From positions 1-43,992 of the forward strand of contig NZ_NQOU01000009.1 in assembly GCF_003576595.1 (NCBI RefSeq): 43,992 nt of DNA, given 5' to 3'. The notes below the pieces were generated by a model. It was not told the origin of the DNA. It saw only the letters and a program-made list of their open reading frames with translations, and ran no database searches. Shown here piece after piece: positions 16,204-21,438 of this stretch (position 1 is the stretch's first letter; each line of letters starts with the position of its first letter). The stretch comes from Neopusillimonas maritima. GTDB taxonomy: Bacteria; Pseudomonadota; Gammaproteobacteria; Burkholderiales; Burkholderiaceae_B. The translations under genes were made by a program, and so were the position numbers.

Positions 16204-16405
16204 AGAACGTGATTTTAGCATAGATTTTCCCTCACTTTTCGAGCCGGCCGGCTCAGCCTCCGCCAAACAAATTAACCATTTTATATCAAGCATTACCGCG
16301 CAATGGTGTACGTCATCTTGCGCATTTCACCATGCTCTTTTGATACCTATAGTTTGCCTCATACAAGCTGTATCAAGTTGTCATAAAAAACAAGGAAAAA
16401 TGAGC

Positions 16406-18058
16406 ATGCTCCGCCCCTTACTATGGTTTGTTCTTGGCGCACTGATGACGCAATCCGTCGGCGCTCAAAGCATCGGAGGTTCCATTGCTGACCAGCAAGA
16501 GAACCCCGTTCAGTCAGACATACCCGCATTATTGCGCGCTCAAAACGATTATGAACAAAAGCCCGCTGACAACAACGCACTTCTAACCTACATTGCAACG
16601 TTGCGCGCAGCACGCCTTTCAAGCGTTGCTTATGCGCTGGCGCAACAACGTCGCGATTCGATTTCCGCCGACCTGCTGCGCGAGCTCACCGTTGATTACG
16701 CCGCGGAACTGACACGACTCTCTTTGGCTCCCGCACGGAGTGAAGAAGAGCGATATCGGCTTGCCGATCGCGCTTTGGAAATATACGACGCGCTACTTGA
16801 AGCCGACAATGAAATATCCGTTACGGAAACAACAAATCACAGGATCCATTTTGACCGTATCCAGGCCCTGCACGCCAGAAAACGTATGGGCGAAGTGGTT
16901 CAATCTTATGAACAACTACGCGCACAGAATATCGTTATACCGGCCTACCTACTCAATGAAATTGGTGATGCCTATCTTTACCTTGAACAACCTGAAAAAG
17001 CCGCCACACTTTACCAAACCAGCCTGATAACCAATGCGGCTGCTCCTCGTGACCGTTCTGATGTCATCAAAGAAAAAATCGGGCGCTATTACGCGCTGCA
17101 GGAACAAGGTCGCTGGACGGAAGCCTATGCGTTACTTGAAACCACCTACGCAGAAGAACCCCCATGGCGCCGCCTGCCTGGGGTAAGCCAACCCCTGCCC
17201 AACGATACATACTTTGAAGTTGCCCGCACGTGGGCAGTTGCCCCTTTATTTCATAACGACCCAGGCCTGGCCCTTGAGCGCCTGGAGACTTTAACTGAAA
17301 GCGCCCCTCGCGATGCCGGCCTGAAAATAGAGTTGGCTAACACGCAGCGTGCATACGGGCTCCCTCGAGCCGCTCAGATTACGTTAAAGCAGGCCGAAGC
17401 CCTTGCCCCACTGAACCCAGATTTACTCACCGCCCAGGCACAAACCGCCCTTTCCCTTCAAGAATGGGAGCAGGCGCAAGAGCTGGCTGCATTCACCCAA
17501 AAGCATTACCCCGAACTCAAAACCACCCAACATCTACAAGAAGACTGGGCGACGCATGAGAAGTGGGAATTGCTTATTGGCGCGCAGAAGACTTTCAGCT
17601 CAGACAGCCCCGTGTCAGGCAGCGGTGAGCACGCGTTGGAAACCACCCTTTACAGCCCTCCAATCGCATCGAATTGGCGCGCATTGGTTGGCGCGGGACA
17701 GTCCAACGCAACGTTCAACGACGAGCCATTACGCAACCGATGGGTCAAAGGCGGTCTGCAATGGCGCGCCGGCAACACAACGATTGAAGCCAATTTGATC
17801 AGCCAACGTTACGGTTATGGACAGAAAACGGGTGCATACGGCAGTTTCGAACAAAAACTCAGCGATGCCTGGACAGTGGGCGGCGCCCTTGAGTGGCGCA
17901 CCCCGGCAACACCGCTGCGCGCCCTTGCCGACAACATCAGCACCAACTCGGCACAAGCCTGGATACGCTGGACCCCCAATACCTACCGGGAATGGGCGAG
18001 CCTTGCCGGCAACTCCTTCGACACTGACATGAAAACCAAAGAAGCACAGCGGGCATGA
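16406..18058 (+). CDS. Truncated PgaA-like exopolysaccharide export porin
   Basis: This 550-residue outer-membrane protein resembles PgaA, the exporter of poly-beta-1,6-N-acetylglucosamine. It has a signal peptide (MLRPLLWFVLGALMTQSVGA), a long TPR-like helical region (about 30-400) and then the beginning of the beta-barrel (about 410-548). The barrel breaks off near SLAGNSFDTDMK; PgaA is usually about 800 residues and needs the rest to close a 16-strand barrel. The stop is followed at once by a hairpin and the convergent ABC gene, with no pgaB, pgaC or pgaD. It is therefore probably a non-functional remnant of a pga locus. Start choice: AAGGA lies 9 bases before 16406; an ATG at 16400 is also possible. 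Confidence 0.7.
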   Translation: MLRPLLWFVLGALMTQSVGAQSIGGSIADQQENPVQSDIPALLRAQNDYEQKPADNNALLTYIATLRAARLSSVAYALAQQRRDSISADLLRELTVDYAAELTRLSLAPARSEEERYRLADRALEIYDALLEADNEISVTETTNHRIHFDRIQALHARKRMGEVVQSYEQLRAQNIVIPAYLLNEIGDAYLYLEQPEKAATLYQTSLITNAAAPRDRSDVIKEKIGRYYALQEQGRWTEAYALLETTYAEEPPWRRLPGVSQPLPNDTYFEVARTWAVAPLFHNDPGLALERLETLTESAPRDAGLKIELANTQRAYGLPRAAQITLKQAEALAPLNPDLLTAQAQTALSLQEWEQAQELAAFTQKHYPELKTTQHLQEDWATHEKWELLIGAQKTFSSDSPVSGSGEHALETTLYSPPIASNWRALVGAGQSNATFNDEPLRNRWVKGGLQWRAGNTTIEANLISQRYGYGQKTGAYGSFEQKLSDAWTVGGALEWRTPATPLRALADNISTNSAQAWIRWTPNTYREWASLAGNSFDTDMKTKEAQRA

Positions 18059-19895: not shown

Positions 19896-20013
19896 CTTCT
19901 GTTATGAGCAATCAGGAACCAGTCCATGACGCATCGGTCATTTTACTGTGAGAAAATAAACCCGCTAAACCTAACGACAACAGACAATCTTTTTCTGCAC
20001 TCCCGGAGCTTGC

Positions 20014-21438
20014 ATGCCTGCCACTCTTCCCTCCCTTGACCCCGCCCTGCAACGTTGTGCGAAAAAAGAAACCAGTGGTCTGGAACAAATCTACCGGCAA
20101 ATTGCCCCGCCGATAAAGGCTTTGGCACAACACGTCTTGAATGACGAAGCGCTGGCTCAACAAGCATTGCACGACAGTATGGTAATGGTCTGGCAACACG
20201 CAAACCATTTCAACCCTGTTCATGGCTCGGGTTACGCCTGGATCTTCAGCATTTTTCGCTATCGCCTGCAGGCCTTGCAGCGGCAACCCAATGTAAACCA
20301 GCCTGATCGAATTATTGCAGTCAAAAGCTGGTTGAACGACATAGGCCCTTGCCTCGCTTACTTTGAACCACCGCTAAGGGAACACATAACCGAAGAAAGT
20401 GCTCAATTCATTGCTCTGGCCTATTGCAAAGGGTTAAACAGCTTCACCATTGAATCGGTCTTGAATATTGACGCTAATATAGTACTGACAAACCTAACCG
20501 CTGCGTTCAACCAAACCCCGGGCGCTCCCCTACCAAGCAGCCAGGTCGACAATGCCACGATTGCCTTTTATGTGCTTGGCCTGCTGAACGGCAACCAAGC
20601 GAACACAGCTCAAGCGGCGATTGCCGAAGACGACAACGCCTTGAAGCAAGCGCTTTATTGGGAGGGGCTATTTTTTCAGTTAACGCAGCTCCTGGCCACA
20701 AACGCGCCCGACGAACAAGCATGGGAAAAAATTCAGAAAACACTGAAGCTTACGATTATTCCGCAACCGTTAAAAACACCTGAAAAAAGTGCTCGGCCGG
20801 AGCCTCCTGCAACCGGAGGCGATGCCAAAGCGGCAACGACTCAAGCCACAACCAACGCAGCGCCCTCGCCTAACAGAAAACGTTCCGAATCAACACCGGC
20901 ACGGCCACGAAAAAGCGGCAAATTACGCCTATTGGTAACCGCCATACTTTTACTGATATTGGCAGCCGGTCTTTATGTGTGGCTGGTACCTATTCAGCCT
21001 GAACTGGCCGCCCACAATACAGCTAACAATGCTGAAAACACACCACCAGAGCCATTGTCTTTACACACCGTTGTTATGCAACCACCCGGCAGTACTTCCA
21101 CGCCCGGCTGGTTAATTGTCTCGCGTGATCCAGGCGTCTTGCATCTTGAGCCCCTGTTGAAAAGCCAGTTGGCAAACGACGAAGTGCTGGTTCTATGGCG
21201 GCGAAAACCCAATTCGCCTACCACTCAGAAACTTGGCGTCATCGACGACTCCGCACCCAGCCAAATTCGCCTGACAAGCGGTTTCTCAGTCGTAGAGCCA
21301 ATGCTGTATGAGATCACGATTGAACAAAACCCCGCCGAATTGGTTGAGCCACAAGGCGATATTGCCTTTATTGGACAAAGTTTCAGGTTGGAAGTACCTG
21401 ATCCTGAGCCTGAAGCACCTCCAGTTCCTGCTCAGTAA
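20014..21438 (+). CDS. Fusion of a degenerate ECF sigma factor with an RskA-type anti-sigma factor
   Basis: One open frame of 474 residues contains two normally separate proteins. Residues 20-90 match ECF sigma region 2 of the SigK type (LEQIYRQIAP, then VMVWQHANHFNP and GYAWIFSIFRYRLQAL). Residues 120-166 look like a decayed region 4: FIALAYCKGLNSFTIESVLN is kept, but the basic helix that contacts -35 DNA has become IVLTNLTAAF. Residues 180-240 resemble the RskA N-terminal anti-sigma domain (IAFYVLGLLNGNQ..., QAWEKI). A charged, Ala/Pro-rich linker leads to a membrane helix (about 304-326) preceded by RPRKSGKLR, placing the N-terminus in the cytoplasm. Residues 346-460 match the periplasmic RskA C-terminal domain. 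Function is unknown; it could be a membrane-held regulator or a fused, decaying pair. Confidence 0.8.
   Translation: MPATLPSLDPALQRCAKKETSGLEQIYRQIAPPIKALAQHVLNDEALAQQALHDSMVMVWQHANHFNPVHGSGYAWIFSIFRYRLQALQRQPNVNQPDRIIAVKSWLNDIGPCLAYFEPPLREHITEESAQFIALAYCKGLNSFTIESVLNIDANIVLTNLTAAFNQTPGAPLPSSQVDNATIAFYVLGLLNGNQANTAQAAIAEDDNALKQALYWEGLFFQLTQLLATNAPDEQAWEKIQKTLKLTIIPQPLKTPEKSARPEPPATGGDAKAATTQATTNAAPSPNRKRSESTPARPRKSGKLRLLVTAILLLILAAGLYVWLVPIQPELAAHNTANNAENTPPEPLSLHTVVMQPPGSTSTPGWLIVSRDPGVLHLEPLLKSQLANDEVLVLWRRKPNSPTTQKLGVIDDSAPSQIRLTSGFSVVEPMLYEITIEQNPAELVEPQGDIAFIGQSFRLEVPDPEPEAPPVPAQ

Follow-up and report, generated by a model that had tools for sequence, protein, structure and literature searches.

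A putative SigK-like sigma factor joined in one chain to an RskA-type anti-sigma factor in Neopusillimonas maritima: a candidate membrane-anchored pro-sigma factor

Fusions of a sigma factor to an anti-sigma factor have been described both singly and from certain ECF groups. The single case is IutY of Pseudomonas putida, reported as one sigma/anti-sigma protein that is released by Prc and RseP (PMC5411451, PMC9249621), and PMC8999054 lists fusions for ECF36, 48, 52, 53 and 243. For the pair SigK and RskA, RskA is reported to be both inhibitor and activator of SigK through the same N-terminal region (PMC7509140); section 11 of that source gives a SigK cysteine pair, 133/183, as present in 94% of ECF18 and 56% of ECF19. 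Among the literature matches listed, no fusion of the RskA type was found in titles and abstract openings, and the main ECF reclassification paper may mention one. At the locus considered here, which lies in Neopusillimonas maritima, the two parts are one protein, and near relatives have the same locus in both the fused and the unfused form.

The window, a stretch of 43,992 nucleotides (contig NZ_NQOU01000009.1), contains the gene as a single open frame running from ATG to TAA (Table 1). A preliminary description, made from the letters of the sequence, had read this frame as an uninterrupted sigma/RskA fusion of 474 codons with a membrane tether, and the open frame, Pfam, NCBIfam and the AlphaFold2 domains all bear it out; the boundaries drawn there agree with the modelled helices and strands, and the tether coincides with one modelled helix and a hydropathy peak. 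The first 166 residues do include a sigma-like match, Sigma70_r2 (PF04542) over residues 26-84, at 25.7 bits against a cut-off of 24 (Pfam, E up to 10; 29.7 bits in the genome-wide search). RskA_C (PF10099) is likewise above its cut-off, with 30.3 bits against 29.4 over residues 307-449, and follows one membrane helix. Sigma region 4 has no Pfam match in the fused protein at E values up to 10. NCBIfam returned 28 matches, and all of the best 25, the ones listed, lie below their own cut-offs; these include ECF sigma models over about residues 9-85 (best PRK12537, E 2.8e-15, 56.3 bits, with the SigK model behind it at 44.5 bits) and an anti-sigma model over residues 185-414 (E 2.9e-7).

Structure prediction from the fused sequence alone gave a mean pLDDT of 42, and an AlphaFold2 model built on a 58-row alignment was used instead (mean pLDDT 85.6, pTM 0.63). 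The profile of the family alignment A2 found 4nqw_A, the SigK chain of the SigK-RskA complex 4NQW, as its best match (E 9.8e-25, profile positions 6-166), and Foldseek, given the model of the fused protein, placed the same chain first (E 5.9e-4), the sole match under 0.001. Among solved sigma factors, SigK is thus the closest to the family by profile, and Foldseek agrees. This layout is best explained by an ECF sigma factor nearest to the SigK type that is made as a single polypeptide together with an RskA-type anti-sigma factor of its own.

The only in-frame starts between residues 95 and 190 are TTG107, TTG150 and GTG187, none of which is preceded, as judged by eye, by a stretch resembling a ribosome site, so one polypeptide is expected. 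The fused gene is single-copy in its genome. Sigma region 2 occurs at 8 genome sites (E up to 0.001), of which the 7 besides the fusion are all on other contigs, and RskA_C occurs at 1 site; therefore no separate partner adjoins the fused gene, as the preliminary description had also said of sigma genes. Elsewhere in the window, a PgaA-like frame at 16340-18058 covers only positions 2-154 of a 294-position barrel model and then stops, and may be truncated.

Table 1. Features of the fused gene and its upstream region (window coordinates; omega from the comparison with the second species, G019)
Feature	Residues	Coordinates	Strand	Evidence
Upstream interval from the divergent ABC transporter gene to the fusion; relatives' TACAAT box missing		19896..20013	+	upstream comparison
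Entire fusion gene (474 aa), ECF sigma factor followed by RskA-type anti-sigma factor	1-474	20014..21438	+	open frame, Pfam, NCBIfam; same frame in G019 at 94%
Sigma region 2	1-92	20014..20289	+	Pfam r2 26-84; helices 9-89; omega 0.098
Sigma region 4, few basic residues	119-168	20368..20517	+	helices 121-166; collinear with relatives' sigma4 in alignment A2; K/R count; A2-SigK match; omega 0.178
Sigma/anti-sigma junction	169-178	20518..20547	+	site of the gene boundary in two-gene relatives
RskA-type cytoplasmic anti-sigma domain	179-247	20548..20754	+	NCBIfam anti-sigma 185-414; four helices 180-243; omega 0.075
Disordered cytoplasmic tether	248-303	20755..20922	+	low pLDDT over most of tether; omega about 1.2 (1.19)
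Single transmembrane helix	304-326	20923..20991	+	modelled helix 303-324; hydropathy peak 307-325
Periplasmic RskA_C beta domain	342-460	21037..21393	+	Pfam RskA_C; strands 349-460; omega 0.013

The same 474-residue frame is found at 94% identity in a second species of the genus, whose genome (G019) is a single contig. For this pair omega is 0.196 over residues 1-168 (95% bootstrap interval 0.08-0.43) and 0.143 over residues 179-474 (0.07-0.26), and the value for sigma region 4 alone has a bootstrap interval of 0.03-0.89 that rests on 10 substitutions. The sigma half and the anti-sigma half are both under purifying selection, the tether is free of it, and sigma region 4 of the window copy has undergone no detectable release from selection. 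In four further fused pairs, too, each half is under purifying selection; in a fifth pair the silent sites are saturated. The membrane helix has omega above 1 in two Alcaligenes pairs, over 13 codons in each, from which we draw nothing. A survey of relatives thus finds the fusion conserved and both of its halves maintained.

We favor, at a probability of roughly 0.55, the reading that the fused protein is a membrane-anchored pro-sigma factor that carries its inhibitor in cis and is freed by regulated proteolysis. At rest, inhibition would come in cis from the anti-sigma domain, placed between sigma2 and sigma4, while the single helix would anchor the whole protein in the inner membrane. RskA_C would sense a periplasmic signal, which would lead to a site-1 cleavage, followed by an intramembrane cut by an RseP-type protease, both steps being modelled on IutY and RskA. 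The freed cytoplasmic fragment, consisting of the sigma factor and the anti-sigma domain, would either be trimmed or act untrimmed, and on this reading the sigma factor would still recognize promoters. Class I anti-sigma domains are reported to touch sigma4 via helices 1 and 3 (PMC7406223), so sigma4 may end near the point where the anti-sigma domain begins, and a short junction could be workable. Since RskA is described as both inhibitor and activator, a fragment that keeps the anti-sigma domain could be active. The genome has an M50 (RseP-type) protease gene; all 14 control genomes have one too, so its presence says little.

A second and distinctly less probable reading is that the sigma part of this lineage no longer directs transcription. 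The protein would then be a repurposed membrane sensor, or a decoy for RNA polymerase or sigma factors, in which sigma2 and sigma4 may be retained for folding with the anti-sigma domain or for binding some other partner. In sigma region 4, residues 119-168 hold 2 lysines or arginines in total and the recognition helix has none, which is the lowest count among 36 rows, and there is no region 4 match. When a shorter sigma4 segment is compared over 63 rows, a total of 2 is common to the window copy and a few others, both fused and separate, while no separate row has a recognition part with 0. Sigma region 4 of the window copy is helical in the model and collinear with the sigma4 of relatives. Among the members of alignment A1, the window copy counted with the fused, Pfam (E up to 0.1) matched r4_2 in 8 of 12 fused and 24 of 25 separate proteins; for r4 the figures were 7 of 12 and 23 of 25. 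Over the 63 rows of the shorter segment the median K/R count of sigma4 is 4 in fused and 5 in separate rows (p 0.002), which would suit this reading. That said, this gap finds no support in independent pairs on the tree, of which 5 lie on starred branches (median p 1), and decay of sigma4 caused by fusion was rejected on that account; the recognition-helix measure goes, if anything, in the opposite direction.

The rest of the protein also speaks to this reading. In sigma2, the window copy has changed three residues that do not vary among the 25 separate relatives of alignment A3 (L26, E30 and R74), but W60, W76, S79, R82 and R84 are retained and the omega of sigma2 is low (Table 1). Divergence extends to all domains, beyond the sigma part: the window copy retains 20 of 37 conserved positions in sigma2, 2 of 5 in sigma4, 15 of 24 in the anti-sigma domain and 22 of 41 in RskA_C. 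The sigma factor had been called decayed at the outset, which holds for a sigma4 poor in basic residues, without any in its recognition helix and without a region 4 match, but it fits less well with a protein in which every domain is divergent and with a sigma4 omega of 0.18. We conclude from these comparisons that the sigma half is best termed strongly diverged, the function of its sigma4 being doubtful, rather than dead.

The upstream region gives a further indication for the sensor reading, the loss in the window pair of a box that its relatives have. TA[CT]AAT occurs in the last 100 nt of 36 of the 41 family upstreams (shuffle mean 2.2), and a 37th, that of L076, has it at 101 nt. In the majority of Alcaligenaceae relatives, whether fused or separate (upstreams L055-L133), the box reads TACAATA and its distance to the sigma/RskA gene is 33 to about 100 nt. 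It recurs as a TACAAT-type box in 15 of 17 members of a further Alcaligenaceae set that partly overlaps the 41, in 3 of 8 short fused copies, and in 1 of the 33 separate copies that are of Pseudomonas type or from Advenella. An ordinary sigma70 -10 element was considered as an explanation and set aside; the upstreams of other genes of the same loci have no excess (7 of 140; shuffle mean 6.4). The box is special to the sigma/RskA gene, but the loci are orthologous, and either sigma70 or the ECF sigma factor may read it. In the window pair the matching place reads, by eye, GAAAAT, so control of the fused gene may have changed. An autoregulated ECF promoter, suggested by an ECF-like GGAAC-N16-GGTC upstream of the fused gene, was also considered and set aside, being present in only 2 near-identical window-type loci of the 41 (shuffle mean 0.29, maximum 2). 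Most of the Pseudomonas-type two-gene loci (L082-L131) have, by eye, approximately GACATCC, a gap of about 17 and GGGTATAACC, which resembles an ECF promoter.

How the two forms are distributed was judged from 200 genomes of the family, 139 of which had some match, many to the sigma gene alone. Loci from these genomes and 79 named loci (from the best 80 of 95) were sorted by frame, giving a sample chosen by similarity and no census. The fused form is found in Pusillimonas minor (YC-7-48, locus L055), Pusillimonas sp. T2 (L056), Alcaligenes, Paenalcaligenes, Mesopusillimonas, strain CGII-43 and a short group that includes Advenella, and the separate form in Pollutimonas, Candidimonas, Pusillimonas noertemannii (L072), Castellaniella, Pseudomonas and others. 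In 64 of the 66 separate rows of the tree the sigma stop and the anti-sigma start overlap as ATGA (30 of 31 Alcaligenaceae-type rows, the exception being the frame-broken L020, and 34 of 35 remaining rows). The two-gene locus L104, with ATGA, and the fused L060, from the isolate CGII-43, share 1149 of 1596 aligned nucleotides, and the sole internal difference that changes the frame is a single base at the ATGA, the others being of 3, 6 and 15 nt; L104 is a MAG, in which a sequence error of one base is possible.

The neighborhood is largely shared. An ABC transporter gene adjoins the sigma gene in 6 of 7 relatives tested, the seventh, L091, showing only its end some 3.9 kb away, and DUF455 lies on the other side in 5 of the 7, not in L060 or L091. 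Both flanking genes are therefore present in five, two of them fused (L055, L064) and three separate (L057, the MAG Alcaligenaceae AS09scLD_59; L072; L080). Compared with P. minor, the ABC transporter shows 84% identity and the fused protein only about 35-38% over aligned parts, which points to fast evolution of the regulator.

The candidates for fusion beyond the family that were inspected did not hold up. A class-wide search of 369 genomes gave candidates of which 6 regions were inspected; five proved to be two genes and one a sigma gene alone near a contig end, the remaining candidates being judged solely by the listed match and frame length. Castellaniella-type frames of 670-678 residues (L048; L049 and L132, apparently from the same contig) were likewise rejected as another fusion. 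The sigma gene forms the end of these frames; in the two that were scanned, L048 and L132, Pfam matches nothing in the first 500 residues, and a TACAAT box stands directly before an internal methionine in all three, which are probably mechanical open frames with an internal true start. The Advenella genome G115 contains a two-gene copy nested in the Pseudomonas clade, placed as if it had been transferred, as well as a separate short fused copy (L036, L037).

A quick tree with 66 separate and 33 fused rows, one of the latter frame-broken (99 in all), requires 8 state changes. A more careful tree with 27 fused and 36 separate rows (63 in all) gives 8 as well, or 7-8 in bootstraps, of which at least 5 are forced by well-supported branches. 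The count by itself does not tell gain from loss, and with separate rows as outgroup we read it as about six to seven fusion events against one to two splits, among which L020 resembles a frame break in a draft genome. Several separate fusions among the relatives are thus probable. One clade (100/100) unites the window pair with P. minor, T2 and the two-gene L057. The fusion in the window lineage therefore either goes back to one in common with P. minor, later reversed in L057, or arose on its own. The tree program warns of long branches, including those of the window pair.

Such repeated fusions suggest that permanent linkage is tolerated, which, together with the activation of SigK by RskA through its inhibitory N-terminal region (PMC7509140), lends something to a third reading, activation without release. 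The anti-sigma domain in cis would then be a modulator, the fused fragment would itself be active, and proteolysis would serve only to free it from the membrane. We consider this unlikely: the same N-terminal region was inhibitory alone in PMC7509140, though the sequence does not separate this reading from proteolytic release. Finally, the idea of an artefact or dying gene, with a missed frameshift or a degrading copy, draws on relatives that look frame-broken in draft genomes, and is already largely refuted, and very improbable, because the 94% copy lies in an independent one-contig genome and both halves are under purifying selection, with omega below 1 in every folded domain and a confident alignment-based fold. 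The relatives in question, L020 and L066, are fused-type genes with a frame break in the anti-sigma part or tether, whether by error or by decay.

The tethered pro-sigma factor remains our preferred reading, and under it an alarm that normally has two parts would become a single part held at the membrane. With several apparent switches, nature has in effect run an experiment that asks if a sigma factor has to part from its anti-sigma factor in order to function. Matched pairs are at hand for direct comparison, namely L060 with L104 and the fused Pusillimonas copies with the unfused L057. More speculatively, Alcaligenaceae two-gene operons might repeatedly become tethered pro-sigma factors via small shifts at ATGA, with the sigma4 of the window copy no longer reading the -35 and only holding the anti-sigma domain, leaving a switch that is sigma2-driven or non-transcriptional; this we would hold to be a long shot. 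For annotation, such fusions are easily filed as a sigma factor or as an anti-sigma factor.

Set against the systems described so far, the protein resembles IutY (ECF243) in having an N-terminal ECF sigma factor, one membrane helix and a periplasmic part in one chain. The periplasmic part of IutY is FecR-like, according to PMC9249621, and its partner is an outer membrane siderophore receptor, whereas the window protein has a periplasmic RskA_C and a distinct cytoplasmic anti-sigma domain. Pfam found no FecR-type domain in the periplasmic part, only RskA_C, and none of the six neighbors scanned belongs to the TonB-dependent receptor family. The fusions of ECF36, ECF48, ECF52 (SCO4117) and ECF53 are similar in that the sigma factor is joined to membrane anti-sigma-like parts and, in section 3.5.3 of PMC8999054, proteolytic freeing is predicted. 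As given in that source, ECF48, 52 and 53 differ by a zinc-finger anti-sigma domain, the window protein having one of RskA type that is C-terminal and occurs in Alcaligenaceae, and ECF36 differs by an N-terminal membrane extension with DUF2275, in place of the C-terminal RskA-type part. Closest of all are SigK-RskA and the two-gene operons of relatives such as L072 and L057, which have the same domains in the same order, with 4NQW as the closest structure. The operons of L072, L080 and L057 also have both flanking genes in common with the window locus, and the difference is that they are two genes joined at ATGA where the window has one.
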